Assembly (NCBI GenBank): GCA_007120385.1
Contig: SKNT01000027.1
Coordinates: 1 to 56,794, forward strand
Direction of reading: 5' to 3'
DNA from: Balneolales bacterium
Lineage (GTDB): Bacteria > Bacteroidota > Rhodothermia > Balneolales > Natronogracilivirgulaceae
Length of the DNA stretch: 56,794 nucleotides
Part shown: positions 37,787 through 46,015 of the stretch, in pieces
Position numbering within the stretch: position 1 is the first letter of the stretch
How the letters are laid out: each line of letters begins with the position of its first letter
Translations under genes and position numbers: made by a program
The notes under the pieces: generated by a model
Told to the model about the DNA's origin: nothing
What the model saw: only the letters and a program-made list of their open reading frames with translations
The model's database searches: none

Positions 37787-38809
37787 TTATTCGCCTTTAT
37801 ATGATGCTACGGCCCTCATGGCCTTCTCCAGGTCCGATTCACTGATTTGAAAGTGAAATGTGGCACGTATGGTGTTTTCGCCGAACGGAATCATGGCCAC
37901 ATCCTGGCTGAGGAACCACGCCAGCGCATTCTCAACGGAGCCCCTGATTACCCGGAAAAGCACAATGTTGGTCTCGACATGGGAGGGTTCCACTTCAAAA
38001 AAGGGTGACGATACTACCGTTTCTGCCAGTTTTTTTGCTTTTCTGTGATCATGTTCGAGTTTTTCATAATGATGATCCACGGCATAGGATGCGGCGGCGG
38101 CCAGCATGCCGGCCTGTCTCATTCCTCCACCGAGAATCTTGCGAAACCTTCGTGCTTTTTTTATCACATCCCGGCTCCCCAGCAGCATGGAACCGACAGG
38201 CGCCCCCAGCCCTTTGCTGAAACATACGGAAATGGTGTCGCAAAGCGAGCCATAATCCGCGAGTTGGGTTCCGGTGGCAACGGCTGCGTTCCAGATCCTG
38301 GCTCCGTCCAGATGCAGTGCCAGCTCCTTTTCCCGGGTAAAGTGAAATATCTCTCTGATCGTTTCCAAAGGATAGCAGGTGCCTCCTCCCTTGTTCGAAG
38401 TGTTTTCAAGAGCCACAACACGGCTGTGCGGGTCCCAGTCGTTTTGCTCGCGGACTGCCGCATTTACCTGTGCGGCAGTGAGGACGCCGCGCTCACCGCG
38501 AACAGGTCGCAGCTGAATGCCGGATATAAGGCCGCCGGCGGCACCTTCAGAGTGGTAGATATGCGCATTCTCGTCAATGATCACCTCGTCAGCCGGCTGG
38601 GTATGCACCTTGAGCCCGATCTGGTTGCCCATGGTGCCGCTGGGCACAAAAACACCGCCCTCCATTCCAAACAGACGTGCAATTTTCTCTTCCAGCGCCT
38701 TAAGGCCAGGGTCCTCACCGAACACATCATCGCCCACAGGCGCCTTGTACATGGCATCCCACATGCCCTCTGTGGGCGTGGTCACGGTATCACTTCGCAG
38801 ATCGATCAT
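37787..38809 (-). CDS. Low-specificity threonine aldolase
   Basis: This PLP enzyme cleaves L-threonine and allo-threonine to glycine and acetaldehyde. The 340-residue protein starts with the family signature 'MIDLRSDTVTTPTEGM'. It also has 'PVGDDVFGEDPGLKALEE', 'FVPSGTMGNQIGL', 'LHLDGARIWNAAVA' (about 168-181) and the PLP-lysine motif 'SVCFSKGLGAPVGSMLLG' (about 196-213, Lys about 201). All appear intact. Its ATG (38809-38807) overlaps the lysA stop by 4 nt, so translation is probably coupled to lysA. Confidence 0.94.
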   Translation of the reverse strand: MIDLRSDTVTTPTEGMWDAMYKAPVGDDVFGEDPGLKALEEKIARLFGMEGGVFVPSGTMGNQIGLKVHTQPADEVIIDENAHIYHSEGAAGGLISGIQLRPVRGERGVLTAAQVNAAVREQNDWDPHSRVVALENTSNKGGGTCYPLETIREIFHFTREKELALHLDGARIWNAAVATGTQLADYGSLCDTISVCFSKGLGAPVGSMLLGSRDVIKKARRFRKILGGGMRQAGMLAAAASYAVDHHYEKLEHDHRKAKKLAETVVSSPFFEVEPSHVETNIVLFRVIRGSVENALAWFLSQDVAMIPFGENTIRATFHFQISESDLEKAMRAVASYKGE

Positions 38810-40074
38810 GACACACCGTCGGGTTGTGCGGCAGCCATGCCGGTTTCCCTCAGAAAGTCATCCACGGTTTCCTCGGGTGATTTCCTGCTTCTTATGGTCT
38901 TGTGGTATCCTTCGGTGGTGATGAGCACCTCTGCCGGAAGCGCCCGGCGGTTGTACTGCGAGGCCATGGTCATGCCGTAGGCACCCGCATCCAGAACGGC
39001 CAGGTAGTCACCGGGCCTGGTTTCGGGCAGGGTTCTGTCAAGCGCGAGCATGTCACCGCTCTCACAGATATTCCCGGCGATGTGATAGGTTTTATCCTCT
39101 TCCCTGCCGGTTGTGCCGCTCAGATTGACAACCATATGGTAAGCATCGTAGAGCGCCGGACGCAGCAGATGGTTGAAGCCGGTATCCGTCCCTATAAAAG
39201 ACTTGCGCCCCTGGTCCTTGACCGTGTTCGCCTGGGTAAGAAGTACACCCGCCGGACCTACAATCCATCGGCCGGGTTCAAAGAAGAACGACACCGGATT
39301 CTTTGCACCTGCCAGAAATTTTTTCAGCCGGTCTGATGCCAGATCGGCAAACCGTTCCAGGTCAAACGGTGATTCGCCCGGACGGTAAGGTATGGGGATT
39401 CCGCCGCCAAAGTTGATGAAAGCAATATCCTGCAGATTTACGGATGATTTCAGAAGCACTTCGATTTCGGCAAGCAGGTTTTCAGGTTCCTGGATGCCGC
39501 TTCCAATGTGCGCGTGAATCCCGCGGATCCGAACCCCGTGCTTGCGGGCAATGTTCACTGCTTCCGGAACTAGGTCCAGCCGGATGCCAAACTTGCTGTC
39601 CTGGTTGCCGGTATCCACTTTGGCATGATGTCCGTCACTTATATCGGGTTTGATGCGGATGCTGCACTCTGTTCCGGGATATGCCTTACAAAAGGCCGCT
39701 AGGCGCCCAAGAGAACCGATATTGAGGATGACACCCTGGCTGGCCGCACCGTGCATTTCTGCATCGGTCATGTTATTTTCAGTGTAGAAAATGTTTCTCG
39801 GATCAGTGCCAAGCTTAAGGCATAAAAGAACCTCCTCATAACTGACCGTATCGAATCCGAACCCTTCTCCGGCAATGATCCGGATGACATGAGGATTATC
39901 ATTGGCCTTGACGGCATACAACCATGAAACCGGCATTTCCGGAAACAGACTCTTCAGCGACCGGCAACGTTCCCGAATCATTGCCTCCAGGTAAACATAG
40001 GTGGGCGTCCCCCATTTTTCCGCAATGGCTAGCAGTCGGTCGGGGTCAACCGGTAGTGGATGATTGGCTTGCAT
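38806..40074 (-). CDS. lysA: Diaminopimelate decarboxylase
   Basis: LysA decarboxylates meso-diaminopimelate to L-lysine with PLP. The 422-residue product has the PLP-lysine motif 'YAVKANDNPHVIRI' (about 48-61), 'GFGFDTVSYEEVLLCLKLG', 'HAHIGSGIQ' (about 190-198), 'INFGGGIPIPY' (about 222-232), 'CESGD' (about 335-339) and 'DAGAYGMTMASQYNRR' (about 357-372). All catalytic positions are recognisable. It is divergent from the acylase-like gene with an 81-base shared upstream region (40075-40155), and is coupled to the threonine aldolase by an ATGA overlap. Confidence 0.95.
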   Translation of the reverse strand: MQANHPLPVDPDRLLAIAEKWGTPTYVYLEAMIRERCRSLKSLFPEMPVSWLYAVKANDNPHVIRIIAGEGFGFDTVSYEEVLLCLKLGTDPRNIFYTENNMTDAEMHGAASQGVILNIGSLGRLAAFCKAYPGTECSIRIKPDISDGHHAKVDTGNQDSKFGIRLDLVPEAVNIARKHGVRIRGIHAHIGSGIQEPENLLAEIEVLLKSSVNLQDIAFINFGGGIPIPYRPGESPFDLERFADLASDRLKKFLAGAKNPVSFFFEPGRWIVGPAGVLLTQANTVKDQGRKSFIGTDTGFNHLLRPALYDAYHMVVNLSGTTGREEDKTYHIAGNICESGDMLALDRTLPETRPGDYLAVLDAGAYGMTMASQYNRRALPAEVLITTEGYHKTIRSRKSPEETVDDFLRETGMAAAQPDGVS

Positions 40075-40155: not shown

Positions 40156-42594
40156 ATGAAATGTTCATCACAGTCTTCGGCAGTCAGGATCGCCGTGCTA
40201 TTTATTCTTCTCATAGCGGTGATTGCCGGCTTGGCGGTATATTGGACCTTTTACCGTGTTGTTCCATCCCTGGAAGGGAACATTGCCATACCGGAACTGC
40301 AAAACGAAGTGCTCGTCAACTGGGACTCCTACCAGGTACCTCATATCATTGCAAATCAGGAAACGGATCTATATTTGGTGATGGGATATCTCCATGCCCG
40401 GGATCGTCTCTGGCAAATGACACGTCAGCAGTACAAACTTGAGGGTCTCCACTCAAGGGAAATCGGGGAGGCGATGCTGGATATGGACCGCTTCTACCTC
40501 ACGCTTTCATTCGGCCGGGCTGCGAAAGATGCCTATGCAAATCTGCCTGGTCAACAGAAAGAGCTGCTGCAATCTTACGCAAACGGTGTAAATGCATTCG
40601 TCAGAGAACATCACAGACATCTGCCGCCCGAATTTGCCCTGAGTGATGTAAAGCCGCTTGAATGGGAGCCATGGCACTCCGTAGGTGTGCTTATCCTCTG
40701 GAACTGGGAGCATCAACAGGCATTCTGGTCCAAACCAGCCCTTTCTGCCCTCCATTTCGTTCGGGATGATACCATCACCAGTGCCCTGACCGGACTGGAT
40801 GTGCCCGGGGAGGTTCTCTTCGGCATTGGTGAACCGTCTTTGGAAAAGCCGGTATGGCAGGCGCTTCTGGATGATTACCATCTTTTTTCAAGTCCTGCAG
40901 CACCATTGAATTCCGGATTCACGGGAACCGGCCTTGCCATGGCGTCGCAAGGAGACGGTCCACCCGGTTTCCTTTTTCATTCCAGAGAATCTTTGCTGAC
41001 ATTGCCGGACCAGGGCTATGAAATGGTGCTTCAGAGCAACCAGGGATGGCGTTCCGGGACAACCCTGCCCGGCCTTCCGGTATTGTTGAGCGGTCAAAAT
41101 CAATATATGGCATGGGCGATCATGCCCCTGGTTTCTGATGACGGGGATTTCTATACCGGCAGGCTTTTCCACGAGGACCCTTCTCTCCCGGTGCAATGGG
41201 AACTTGATCCCGATATTCTGTCCCTGCTGGATGAAAGCCTGAGTGTGGAACGACACATCCTTTCCCTGAAAAATGGTGATGAAAAGCAGATTCTTTTGAA
41301 GCGGGCCAATCATATGCCCGTCGTAGCCATTTCGGAAAAACACAACCGGTTTCTCGCATTTGACTGGACCGGACTCCGGTATCCGGCAGACATCGGGGAA
41401 CTCATGAACCTCTCGCGGACCCGTAATCCCGACCAGCTAAACCTTTTTACAGAATCGCTCTCCATGCCGGCCATTCAAGTCCTTTTTGTAACTACTGACG
41501 GTCAAACGGGACGTTTTACGGGAGGAAGGTTGTTCACAGACCCCTACCCGCTCAGGATAAAAGATATTCAATCATTCAACAGACCGCATTCATCGGCACC
41601 CGCATCACAAATTGTTCCAAACAGGCAGCATCTATATGGAAATCCGGTAACATTTCTCGACCGGGTGCCGTCATCCCGAATTGCTGTTGCCGGGAAGTGC
41701 CTCTACGCCCCGCCCTGGGAAAGATCCGACCGATTTCTGCAGTTGCTTGACCGGACGGCGTCCGACCGGTTGATTCCAGCTCTGACGCTTCAATGGCACA
41801 ACGACACCTACTCCAGTTTTGCCGCCGACCTCACGCCTCTTATTACGGGCTCCCTGGAGACCGAATCCCGTTCATTCAATCCGGATTTGCCTGCGGATCA
41901 TATCATACCCTATTTCAATAACTGGAATTACGAATTCGGCACGAATGAAACGGCTGCGACTCTTTTTCAGCTTTTTTTCAAACACGCAGCCATAAACCTC
42001 TATACACCCTGGCTCAGTGAGCGCGAAACAGATATGCTTTTCCGTACGCCAAACGTGACTTACTCGGCAGTGTCCAGGCTCCTTGCCGACCCGATGCTGT
42101 GGCCCGGCAGCCATCCCTACACATACCAGGAATGGATCGCCAAAAGTATCAACGAAACGGCCGGGCACTTGTCAGCCGGATTTGGGCATGAACCCTATGA
42201 CTGGCAGTGGAACAGGGTCGTCCGGGCCGAATTTTCCCCCGTGCTGTTTGATGAGACCCGCAGAAACAGCCACCCTGCCCGGCTCGCTGAAAAAAACCTG
42301 TTCCAGCCGCCGCAAATTGTGGTTTCGGGGGCTCCCCATTCCATAAATGCCATGCATCCTGCTCACAACCACCCGGTTACAGCTGCCGGAGCAACAACAA
42401 TGAAACGAATCATGCTTGTTCAGACGCAACAAGCGAGTTATTCCATTCTGAGCACCGGTCAATCCGGCAATCTCTTTTCCGATCATTACCATGATCAGTT
42501 TGAACTCTGGAACCAGGGATTGATGAAAATGCCCGTGCCGCTTCCACCCGCCCAAACAGATAATATTACACATACTCAACGCTTCAGACCATGA
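40156..42594 (+). CDS. Penicillin-acylase-like membrane-anchored protein with altered active site
   Basis: I start at ATG 40156 (MKCSSQSS); an earlier frame to 40060 would overlap lysA. The product has 812 residues: a membrane helix (about 14-34), then the alpha-chain region ('GYLHARDRLWQMTRQQYKLE', about 99-118) and the beta-chain region, as in Ntn-hydrolase acylases. The autocleavage site normally reads GSNNW with the Ser nucleophile; here the region is N252-S-G-F-T-G-T258-G with no Trp. The later strand keeps 'TLPGLPVLLSGQNQYMAWAI' but reads P324 in the segment after it, and the oxyanion-Asn region reads A-G513-K-C. It is probably not a normal acylase. It is coupled to the GH3 gene by ATGA. 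Confidence 0.82.
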   Translation: MKCSSQSSAVRIAVLFILLIAVIAGLAVYWTFYRVVPSLEGNIAIPELQNEVLVNWDSYQVPHIIANQETDLYLVMGYLHARDRLWQMTRQQYKLEGLHSREIGEAMLDMDRFYLTLSFGRAAKDAYANLPGQQKELLQSYANGVNAFVREHHRHLPPEFALSDVKPLEWEPWHSVGVLILWNWEHQQAFWSKPALSALHFVRDDTITSALTGLDVPGEVLFGIGEPSLEKPVWQALLDDYHLFSSPAAPLNSGFTGTGLAMASQGDGPPGFLFHSRESLLTLPDQGYEMVLQSNQGWRSGTTLPGLPVLLSGQNQYMAWAIMPLVSDDGDFYTGRLFHEDPSLPVQWELDPDILSLLDESLSVERHILSLKNGDEKQILLKRANHMPVVAISEKHNRFLAFDWTGLRYPADIGELMNLSRTRNPDQLNLFTESLSMPAIQVLFVTTDGQTGRFTGGRLFTDPYPLRIKDIQSFNRPHSSAPASQIVPNRQHLYGNPVTFLDRVPSSRIAVAGKCLYAPPWERSDRFLQLLDRTASDRLIPALTLQWHNDTYSSFAADLTPLITGSLETESRSFNPDLPADHIIPYFNNWNYEFGTNETAATLFQLFFKHAAINLYTPWLSERETDMLFRTPNVTYSAVSRLLADPMLWPGSHPYTYQEWIAKSINETAGHLSAGFGHEPYDWQWNRVVRAEFSPVLFDETRRNSHPARLAEKNLFQPPQIVVSGAPHSINAMHPAHNHPVTAAGATTMKRIMLVQTQQASYSILSTGQSGNLFSDHYHDQFELWNQGLMKMPVPLPPAQTDNITHTQRFRP

Positions 42595-44420
42595 TTCAGA
42601 GAATTCCTCGCAGACCTTTCCCGTCTGTCCTGTTTTTACATGCAATTGTTATTCTGATCTTCGTACAGGCACTGGCTTCATGCCGCCCTTCCGAAAAACT
42701 GTCCGGCGACATCGGGCCGGCGACTGCCGGAATGACGGCATCTGGTCTTCTTCAACCGGAAGAGGTGACAGACCCGGACGTGCTGCTTACCACTATGACA
42801 CTGAGGCAAAAGATTGGCCAGATGTTTCTTGTTGCGGCACGCGGCGGATTCTATCCGGACGATGACCGCATGTGGCAGCGCATGTCCGAGGCGGTTGAAC
42901 AGCAGGAAGTTGGCGGCATCATGTTTTTCAGCGGCAACATCTACGATCAGGCGATCGTCACCAATCGTCTGCAGAAGAAAAGCCGCATTCCCTTGTGGGT
43001 CAGCCAGGACATGGAGTTCGGGGCTGCCATGAGAATTCCGCAGGCCACCTACATCACTCCGGCCATGGGTATTGCGGCAACGGGTAATCCAAACTATGCG
43101 TATCAGAAGGGATACATTACTGCCAAAGAGGCGTCGGCCCTCGGCATCCACCAGATTTATGCACCGGTGCTGGATGTAAACAACAATCCGCTCAACCCGG
43201 TCATCAACGTACGATCCTACTCCGAAAATCCAGATACTGTAGCCCGGTATGGCATAGCGTTTATGGAGGGTGTACGGGACGCCGGCGTGATGTCCACCGC
43301 CAAGCATTTTCCGGGACACGGAGACACGGACGTTGACTCCCACCTGGATCTTCCCGTGCTTCCTTTTGACTATCATCGCCTGTCCACAATGGAACTCATC
43401 CCGTTCCGGAAAGCGATTCGGGCAGGTCTGCCAAGTGTGATGACAGCACATATCGCCCTTCCTGAAATTGCCTGGAATTCCGGCTATCCGGGAACTCTGG
43501 ATCCTTACATCACCGGGTCACTGTTGCGCGATTCACTTGCCTTCGAGGGTCTTATTGTCACAGACGGCATGGGCATGCGAGGAATCCGCAACTTTTTCGA
43601 GTCCGGGGAAGCGGCTGTTCTTGCTGTCAAGGCAGGCATTGACCAGATACTGCTCCCCGTTAATCTTCTTGAGGCCATGGATGCGGTACATCTGGCTGTG
43701 CTGTCCGGTGAAATTCCTGAGGAACGCATAGACGATTCCGTCCGGAGGATACTGAATGAAAAAATCCGTGCCGGGCTCTTCAGGCAGCCTCCGGTCGTGG
43801 ACCTTGAGCGGCTGCCTTACCGCATCAACACCCGCGAGCACCGGCTGATAGCGGATCATATCGCCAGGGAGTCCATTACCCTGCTTAAGAATACGGAGCA
43901 ACTGCTGCCCATAGATTCCACACGGTTCGTAAAAGTCAGCATCGTCAACATATCGGACGGAAGAAGAAGCACTGACGACCAGATTTCCCGTGAAATCGCA
44001 GATTACTTCCATAAAGTCCGTTCCGTTCAGATGTATCCCGGACAATGCGTGCGAGACAGTCTGGACGCCGTGGATGCTGTCATGTCGGCCGACCTGGTCA
44101 TTGCCGTATCACATGTCGCCATACGCACGGCGGAGGATATCAATCTGGATGACACCGTGGGCCCTGTTATGGATCATCTATTCCGTACAGGGAGTCCGGT
44201 GATTGGCATTTCGCTCGGAACGCCCTATGCCATCCTGAACATGGCAAAAGCGGATGCGCACATTCTGGGATGGTCGCCAGACCGGCGTCAGCAGACTGCC
44301 GTTTCCAATGCCCTGCTGGGCAAGGCCCCGGTCACCGGACGCCTGCAGGTTTCCATACCTCCCTTGTACACCATCGGTGACGGAATCCGGCTGCATCCAG
44401 AACCAATACTCAACCAATGA
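42591..44420 (+). CDS. Glycoside hydrolase family 3 lipoprotein (beta-N-acetylhexosaminidase-like)
   Basis: The protein has 609 residues. The signal ends in a lipobox (ALASC, Cys about 30). The GH3 barrel (about 60-400) has 'VSQDMEFGAAMRI', the NagZ-type loop KHFPGHGDTDVDSHLDLP (about 238-255; its His/Asp pair is the acid/base in NagZ) and the nucleophile Asp in 'LIVTDGMGM' (about 322). A C-terminal alpha/beta domain (about 410-600) follows. This form lacks the beta-lactamase domain seen in some Bacteroidota NagZ proteins. It probably cleaves terminal GlcNAc from cell-wall or other glycans outside the cytoplasm. The motifs appear intact. It overlaps both neighbours by 4 nt. Confidence 0.9.
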   Translation: MIQRIPRRPFPSVLFLHAIVILIFVQALASCRPSEKLSGDIGPATAGMTASGLLQPEEVTDPDVLLTTMTLRQKIGQMFLVAARGGFYPDDDRMWQRMSEAVEQQEVGGIMFFSGNIYDQAIVTNRLQKKSRIPLWVSQDMEFGAAMRIPQATYITPAMGIAATGNPNYAYQKGYITAKEASALGIHQIYAPVLDVNNNPLNPVINVRSYSENPDTVARYGIAFMEGVRDAGVMSTAKHFPGHGDTDVDSHLDLPVLPFDYHRLSTMELIPFRKAIRAGLPSVMTAHIALPEIAWNSGYPGTLDPYITGSLLRDSLAFEGLIVTDGMGMRGIRNFFESGEAAVLAVKAGIDQILLPVNLLEAMDAVHLAVLSGEIPEERIDDSVRRILNEKIRAGLFRQPPVVDLERLPYRINTREHRLIADHIARESITLLKNTEQLLPIDSTRFVKVSIVNISDGRRSTDDQISREIADYFHKVRSVQMYPGQCVRDSLDAVDAVMSADLVIAVSHVAIRTAEDINLDDTVGPVMDHLFRTGSPVIGISLGTPYAILNMAKADAHILGWSPDRRQQTAVSNALLGKAPVTGRLQVSIPPLYTIGDGIRLHPEPILNQ

Positions 44421-45223
44421 ACCATATGACCTGGAAAGATCTGCAATCTCGTTGCTATGCTCCCTATTCCGGCAGGAATGATGTCTGTATGGTGCAAGGG
44501 GCATCCGGCACCTTGTACCCGGGTGTCAGAGTGGAAAACATCTCATTCCCGCTCACTGTAGATGCCGTGCAGGCAGCCCTGTTTTCGTGCCTGAGCGAGG
44601 GTGACACTCCCCGGAAATTGATAATGCCGGCAAGCTCCAATCAGGAACAGGACGGTGAAAGCTCCGGCAGTGCTGGCAAAATTCCCGCATCAGACCCGGC
44701 TGATCATTCTGCAGCGCACGTTTGCTCTGCTGCGGAGTTGCGCTACTGGTGCGATCAGTTTAAGCTTGCCTGCAACCAGCATGAGCAACCCGAGGGCGGA
44801 CATCCCTCCCGCACATTCCGGACTTCAGAAAATCAAACCGGTATTCAAAGACTCAAGGAGCTGACCACCAGGTGCGTCATCCCCTACTCTTTCTTCCCCG
44901 TCACCGCCCTGCTTGTTTCCGACGCCGGAATTTTCTCCGGTGTAAACATTGAAGTGAGCGACTGGCAGAAGGGACTCTGTGCCGAACGCGTGGCCATGGC
45001 CAAGGCCCGGGCTGCCGGTGCCGCCTCCTTCCGCGAAATACATGTGTATGCACCACAAAGTGACTATGTGAGTCCATGCGGTGCCTGCCGACAGATCTTA
45101 ATCGAACACATGGCTGACGGCTCAATGTATATGCACCACAACGATTCTGAAATCACAAGACTTTCAATAGCCGACTTGCTTCCCTACCAGTTTAAAGCCG
45201 GACAGCTTGGCCAGCAATCCTGA
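44417..45223 (+). CDS. Two-lobed cytidine deaminase with degenerate N-terminal lobe
   Basis: Cytidine deaminase converts cytidine and deoxycytidine to uridines. The product has 268 residues. The C-terminal lobe (about 150-262) has the zinc motif L-C188-A-E190-R and P-C221-G-A-C224, preceded by 'SGVNIEVSDW'. The N-terminal lobe (about 5-80) has the same outline ('CYAPYSGRNDV', 'LYPGVRVENISFPLTVDA'), but the C-A-E position reads D49-A-V51 and no PCxxC follows. A polar linker of about 60 residues joins them. E. coli Cdd has an active and an inactive lobe in the opposite order. Its start overlaps the GH3 stop by 4 nt. Confidence 0.87.
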   Translation: MNHMTWKDLQSRCYAPYSGRNDVCMVQGASGTLYPGVRVENISFPLTVDAVQAALFSCLSEGDTPRKLIMPASSNQEQDGESSGSAGKIPASDPADHSAAHVCSAAELRYWCDQFKLACNQHEQPEGGHPSRTFRTSENQTGIQRLKELTTRCVIPYSFFPVTALLVSDAGIFSGVNIEVSDWQKGLCAERVAMAKARAAGAASFREIHVYAPQSDYVSPCGACRQILIEHMADGSMYMHHNDSEITRLSIADLLPYQFKAGQLGQQS

Positions 45224-45367: not shown

Positions 45368-46015
45368 GTGAAATACATAGCCATCCTCGATTATCTGCGA
45401 CTTGACAACGGCATGTTCATGAAGTCATTTTCAGAAGCCATGGGCCGTCAGAGTGGTTGCTCCGGCATCATCATACACGGCGACAGCGGGTACACGGAAC
45501 GCCTGATCCAGACGGGTATAATGAGGGAGGATGCGATATTACGCAGCACCAGGGATCTGAATCACAGAATTGTGGCTCTTCTTGCCGACAGCGGAGTTTC
45601 CGGCATAGGTGTCAACGGATATCAGAAAAAAATCGTCCGCCTCACCGGCCGGGATATCCTGGTGGATCGGGACTGGCTTGAGGTACGTCCACCCGGTACA
45701 CATATCATTCTTTCCAACCTTGCCTGGGATGATGCACATCAAAAGGCAGCCCCGGTGCCCCTTCCCGTGCTTGCCGATGCGCTCAGCACCCAGCTGAATC
45801 GACAGACCGTGATCATTTTTTCACTCAATGACAGTGGTGATCCTGTTATTTTCAAAAAAAACAGCGGCCATGATTCTAATAGCAACTCAAAACAGGAACT
45901 TTTAGAATTGGTTCCTGATGACCTTCGTCCCCTGCCCAAAAACTGCTATTTAGGCACTACAGAGGCCTTTGGAAACCTTCCTGACAAGTCGGGCCTGCGA
46001 CATTTCTCATCATAA
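45368..46015 (+). CDS. Divergent amino-acid-kinase-fold protein (acetylglutamate-kinase-like)
   Basis: This is a 215-residue protein with no confident family. It begins with GTG at 45368. The order of segments resembles N-acetylglutamate kinase: 'GIIIHGDSGYTERLIQTGI' (about 33-51) at the place of the HGGG substrate loop, 'STRDLNHRIVALLADSGVSG' (about 61-80), and 'PVLADALSTQLNRQTVIIFS' (about 136-155) at the place of the nucleotide-binding 'AxxxAxxLxAxxLIxLTD'. The N-terminal KxGG is missing and HGGG has become HGDS. It is therefore either an inactive relative or a false resemblance. The 144 bases upstream contain a CCTCCT/AGGAGG hairpin without a T run. Confidence 0.6.
   Translation: MKYIAILDYLRLDNGMFMKSFSEAMGRQSGCSGIIIHGDSGYTERLIQTGIMREDAILRSTRDLNHRIVALLADSGVSGIGVNGYQKKIVRLTGRDILVDRDWLEVRPPGTHIILSNLAWDDAHQKAAPVPLPVLADALSTQLNRQTVIIFSLNDSGDPVIFKKNSGHDSNSNSKQELLELVPDDLRPLPKNCYLGTTEAFGNLPDKSGLRHFSS

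Follow-up and report, generated by a model that had tools for sequence, protein, structure and literature searches.

The window, that is, the whole 56,794-nucleotide stretch of Balneolales DNA analysed here (contig SKNT01000027.1), encodes a penicillin-acylase-like protein which is probably an uncleaved, membrane-anchored pseudoenzyme with a binding or scaffold role, descended vertically from a catalytically complete Balneolales acylase. We put the probability of this reading at roughly 0.68. The protein belongs to an enzyme family but lacks nearly all of its catalytic residues, and it has been kept by selection: the GSN nucleophile motif was found in none of the 16 orthologs, proline occupied the oxyanion position B69 in all of them, and the oxyanion Asn at B241 was present in none. 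The suspicion of the initial annotation, that the Ntn-hydrolase catalytic centre is gone from an otherwise acylase-like fold, was borne out in substance. The features discussed are listed in Table 1.

Table 1. Positions of the pseudo-acylase gene, its altered active-site segments and neighbouring genes in the window
Feature	Coordinates	Strand	Basis or remark
lysA (diaminopimelate decarboxylase), divergent neighbour	38806..40074	-	TIGR01048, synteny
Pseudo-acylase gene, 812 aa plus stop	40156..42594	+	PF01804 over residues 51-789
Predicted single N-terminal anchor helix, residues 5-35	40168..40260	+	model and alignment
Degenerate nucleophile/autocleavage segment N252-SGFTGTGLA-M262, in place of xxGSNAWVV	40909..40941	+	alignments, model strands
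R277-E278-S279, in place of P-H-L of DPHL; E278 at B23	40984..40992	+	alignment
P324 at the AlaB69 position of penicillin G acylase (PGA)	41125..41127	+	W320+4 = W65+4 of PGA, gap-free
V498-TFLD-R503, in place of I-A-N-x-N-N; D502 at AsnB241	41647..41664	+	alignments, hhalign
R523 at ArgB263 of PGA	41722..41724	+	alignment
GH3 (NagZ-like) lipoprotein gene	42591..44420	+	overlaps the pseudo-acylase stop by ATGA (4 bases)
Cytidine deaminase	44417-45223
215-aa open reading frame	45368-46015

Predicted fold and membrane anchor

The start at 40156 is supported by close orthologs, whose genes start at the same point, and the reading frame, coordinates, anchor helix and residue numbering (N252-S-G-F-T-G-T; A512-G513-K-C) given by the initial annotation were all correct. 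The protein matched the PF01804 profile over its full length (E 5.3e-87, 293.9 bits), as expected of a member of PF01804 and MEROPS family S45. A confident AlphaFold model was obtained for the 812-aa protein (pLDDT 90.8, pTM 0.91), and its best Foldseek match among solved structures was the Ntn acylase D-succinylase 7eby (E 2.5e-36, TM 0.73/0.78 across the whole chain). On these grounds the S45 acylase architecture is predicted to be intact, as had been proposed. The D-succinylase structures (PDB 7eby, 7ea4) represent the closest solved fold, but the enzyme shares 17% identity with the window protein and carries GSNNW and DPH.

Membrane anchoring by one N-terminal helix was likewise predicted, which would place the acylase domain of a single-chain protein outside the cytoplasm. 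Y29 and T31 within the helix are invariant, in active orthologs too. The single-chain S45 fold is represented by the uncleaved precursors of cephalosporin acylase (1keh) and MacQ (5c9i), and this is the state expected of the window protein. Those structures come from active enzymes, captured as precursors or as engineered mutants, whereas the uncleaved state of the window protein would be natural and permanent.

Residues of the catalytic centre

In a search of 60 related genomes, orthologs (35-61% identity) were confined to the family of the window itself, a soda-lake family of the Balneolales, and were present in 16 genomes; in one of them (G003) the gene is split across two contig ends. The named records comprise Balneolales metagenome-assembled genomes, of which many bear CSSed16 isolate names, as well as one cultured strain, ANBcel3 (L041). 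A published phylogeny placed ANBcel3, which originates from Siberian soda lakes, in the Cyclonatronaceae (PMC11700989), and the family is taken to be the Cyclonatronaceae on the basis of this placement. The 16 pseudo-acylases were aligned with 19 active Balneolota-type orthologs and 65 other S45 proteins, 100 sequences in total. Alignment columns were tied to PGA via PDB alignments, and SerB1, AlaB69 (W65+4) and AsnB241 were counted along the printed chain.

The loss of the catalytic centre recurred in every ortholog found, which excludes sequencing error or chance as its cause. The initial annotation had asked whether the substituted positions are conserved across Balneolota. They are confined to a single lineage, the family described above; GSN, DPH and the oxyanion Asn were retained in each of the 19 further Balneolota-type orthologs examined.

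In PGA, one of the two legs of the oxyanion hole is the backbone NH of AlaB69, a group that proline does not have. The proline at B69, a feature that the initial annotation had not mentioned, would therefore remove a usual oxyanion donor at B69/B70. It occurred in 0/19 active orthologs, where Asn, Ser or Ala is found, and in 1/65 of the other proteins. We regard it as the strongest single sign of lost catalysis, since its assignment needs no gap and does not depend on the alignment of the nucleophile loop. The neighbouring Thr at B68, present in 19/19 active orthologs and 62/65 others, is replaced by varied residues in the pseudo-acylases.

AsnB241 provides the side-chain leg of the oxyanion hole. 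An earlier assignment of this segment to A-G513-K-C was rejected: three alignments, including hhalign, agreed on D502, about 11 residues earlier, and this column was anchored on PGA AsnB241. The column contained an acid in 13/16 pseudo-acylases (Glu in ten, Asp in three) and Gly, Val and Thr in one each, while Asn was present in 19/19 active Balneolota-type orthologs and 62/65 others. With proline at B69 and no Asn at B241, both legs of the oxyanion hole are lost throughout the clade.

At B23, where active S45 Ntn hydrolases have His or Gln, the window protein has E278. Glu was found in 14/16 pseudo-acylases, with His and Gly in one each; His was present in 19/19 active Balneolota-type orthologs and 64/65 others, and E. 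coli PGA has Gln. The only tested active-site residue kept in the window protein is R523; Arg at B263 was found in 15/16 pseudo-acylases and 19/19 active orthologs. The same set of residues is known from PvdQ, with Val B70, Asn B269 at the position of PGA B241, and His B23 (PMC5566955).

The replacement of the nucleophile motif GSNNW by N252-S-G-F-T-G-T, as originally read by eye, was confirmed. No conserved Ser, Thr or Cys was found at the nucleophile site in any alignment register of the 16 orthologs. Position 256 is occupied by Ser (7), Thr (5), Ala (2), Pro (1) and Gln (1), position 257 by Gly (14), Gln (1) and Asn (1), and position 258 by Thr (11), Val (2), Ser (2) and Ile (1). The proposed new catalytic use of Ser253, Thr256 or Thr258 was rejected accordingly, as these positions vary within the clade. 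The B1 column itself is ambiguous by one residue: one alignment gave T256, another G257, and the flanking Gly suggested T258 by eye; hhalign opened gaps at this site. In the AlphaFold models the first strand spans residues 257-262 in the window protein and 260-263 in the active ortholog L019, and the second strand begins 12 residues ahead of a shared Pro in both. The nucleophile loop is thus one residue shorter in the window protein model, and the strand and loop lengths of these two models favour G257 as the B1 residue.

These observations bear on the possibility of a slow Thr-type Ntn hydrolase, in which the window protein would autocleave at Thr256 or Thr258 and retain weak activity. Threonine is a legitimate Ntn nucleophile, and one alignment sets T256 exactly on the Ser column. 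We nevertheless consider such an enzyme quite unlikely, given that some close relatives have Ala, Pro, Gln, Val or Ile at 256 or 258, that both oxyanion positions are altered in all 16 proteins, and that the model strands point to G257.

A change of chemistry is a somewhat less remote, though still doubtful, alternative. The clade might then represent re-purposed S45 proteins in which the remodelled cleft forms a new, conserved ligand or active site (Gly257/Gly259, Glu278-Ser279, Pro324 and the acid at 502) with a new reaction or sensing role, for example through an acid pair of E278 and D/E502, at a locus that resembles one for cell-wall recycling. The frequency of both acids agrees with this proposal, as do the further clade-specific invariant polar residues H99, E598 and H728. 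The tryptophans W173, W182, W547, W649 and W660 are invariant and specific to the clade as well. E278 is, however, lost in G010 and G014 and the acid at 502 in G001, G003 and G005; as the exceptions fall in different species, the pair has not been maintained together. The proline at B69 would also deprive such an enzyme of a usual oxyanion donor. Activity in the absence of the family Ser has a precedent in the uncleaved MacQ variant S210A, which was reported to retain activity on several AHLs (PMC5566955), so that a missing Ser is by itself no proof of inactivity.

The MacQ variant, which is the chief reason for caution, the two nucleophile registers that give Thr in the window protein and the retained Arg at B263 all count against the pseudoenzyme reading as well. 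Given the absence of a conserved nucleophile, the Glu at B23, the Pro at B69 and the mostly acidic B241, the window protein is very likely inactive as an Ntn amidase. Neither autocleavage nor amide hydrolysis by the family mechanism would be expected from these substitutions, and by that mechanism the protein probably stays uncleaved.

Ancestry, locus and selection

In a quick tree, the 16 pseudo-acylases were monophyletic (SH-aLRT 100, stem 1.23) and branched from within the catalytically complete Balneolota-type orthologs; their sister group, with weak support (90), consisted of the complete copies from G016 and G018. The copy adjoining lysA is catalytically complete in G015, G016 and G018, which belong to the same family as the pseudo-acylase clade. 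The complete Balneolales orthologs (L017-L030, L045, L121, L122) occupy the corresponding locus and resemble the window protein in length, anchor and fold at about 24-31% identity; unlike it, they keep GSN, DPH, Thr at B68, Ser, Asn or Ala at B69, and Asn at B241. The divergent neighbour lysA, retained at the pseudo-acylase loci and at several active loci, marks a shared locus. Complete orthologs from other families share the gene order lysA, acylase, GH3, cytidine deaminase, with exceptions among the loci examined. The shared gene order indicates that the pseudo-acylase is the same gene in altered form and not a new arrival. The alterations have a single origin along the stem branch leading to the Cyclonatronaceae clade, where Ntn chemistry would have been lost once in a complete acylase transmitted vertically at this locus.

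Three further S45 proteins were observed. The host genome encodes a second one of 915 aa (L146, G000:C197:5500-9800) with the full motif set (GSNSW, DPH, SAN), which implies that the host has not wholly lost S45 chemistry. An odd paralog in G016 (L128, C477) has HSNALMA and VDLHS, no ANxN and a very long branch. A protein from a Caldithrix sp. metagenome-assembled genome (L051, DYKB01000032.1, 7956-10325) is a second degenerate S45 protein, without DPH; it is the sole other sequence of the 100 with Pro at B69 and also lacks the B23 His and the oxyanion Asn. It shares 23% identity with the window protein, still carries an ASN string close to the nucleophile site and falls in another part of the tree, at the end of a very long branch; it may reflect an independent loss of the catalytic centre.

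The initial annotation described the gene as translationally coupled to a GH3 lipoprotein. The ATGA overlap in the window agrees with this, but functional coupling is weak: an intact GH3 gene is missing from the locus in 7/16 genomes (absent in G003, G005, G011, G012, G014 and G017, decayed in G001), and the pseudo-acylase persists there. An obligate partnership was therefore rejected; other GH3 genes occur elsewhere in these genomes. In G001, where the pseudo-acylase is intact, the decaying GH3 gene next to it (L148, G001:C71) matches GH3 residues 56-181 and 361-599 only. The GH3 protein of the window has an intact KHFPGHGDTDVDSH motif and no beta-lactamase-type C-terminal domain. GH3 reading frames in families f3 and f5 comprise 960-1011 aa. 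Of these long proteins L143 alone was scanned, and Pfam assigned its extension to a beta-lactamase domain.

In L137 and L138, which belong to the window's family (f1) and carry a complete acylase, and in L043 (f5), the acylase and GH3 genes are separated by one for a BadF-family ATPase (PF01869). With the G015 kinase as query, strong matches were obtained only in G015, G016 and G018, and elsewhere in the family E was near 1e-4 at best; the absence of the kinase together with the pseudo-acylase clade counts as one correlated change in a single lineage, and several of the genomes are incomplete. Downstream of GH3, the cytidine deaminase of the window is extended at its N-terminus by about 140 aa and is kept as a neighbour in most of the clade loci examined. 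The 215-aa reading frame, which had no match in Pfam or NCBIfam, is conserved next to the deaminase gene in the majority of the Balneolales loci examined.

The loss of other genes of the ancestral locus, namely the BadF kinase and GH3, could suggest that the pseudo-acylase is a functionless gene in decay, or else an artefact of metagenome assembly. We consider either very improbable. The gene has an open frame of normal length in 16 species, 99 columns are invariant among 15 aligned members, and it is present in the cultured isolate ANBcel3. Close pseudo-acylase pairs with unsaturated dS gave omega values of 0.18-0.23, and purifying selection at omega of about 0.2 thus acts on the gene; a pseudogene was rejected on omega and frame integrity, and the decay or artefact reading is largely refuted. 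Relative to lysA, dN was 2.1-3.2 in pseudo-acylase pairs and 1.9-2.3 in the two active pairs for which lysA was measured. Constraint is similar in both groups by that measure, which lends no support to faster evolution after the loss of catalysis. Two other active pairs had omega near 0.05, a soft contrast in view of their dS of 1.1 and 3.0.

Implications for the acylase family

Under the favoured reading of an uncleaved pseudoenzyme, purifying selection would maintain a periplasmic ligand-binding or scaffolding protein with a remodelled cleft; the conservation of the clade points to a binding or scaffold role as the most likely one. No natural pseudoenzymes of the penicillin acylase family (S45) were found in the open-licence literature searched. 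The finding is also a warning that naming such proteins by profile only, as penicillin or quorum-quenching acylases, would assign wrong functions. A clade in which both oxyanion legs are gone, with complete relatives at the same locus, offers a system for studying the role of an acylase fold deprived of its chemistry, and such questions are testable because a cultured strain, ANBcel3, carries the gene.
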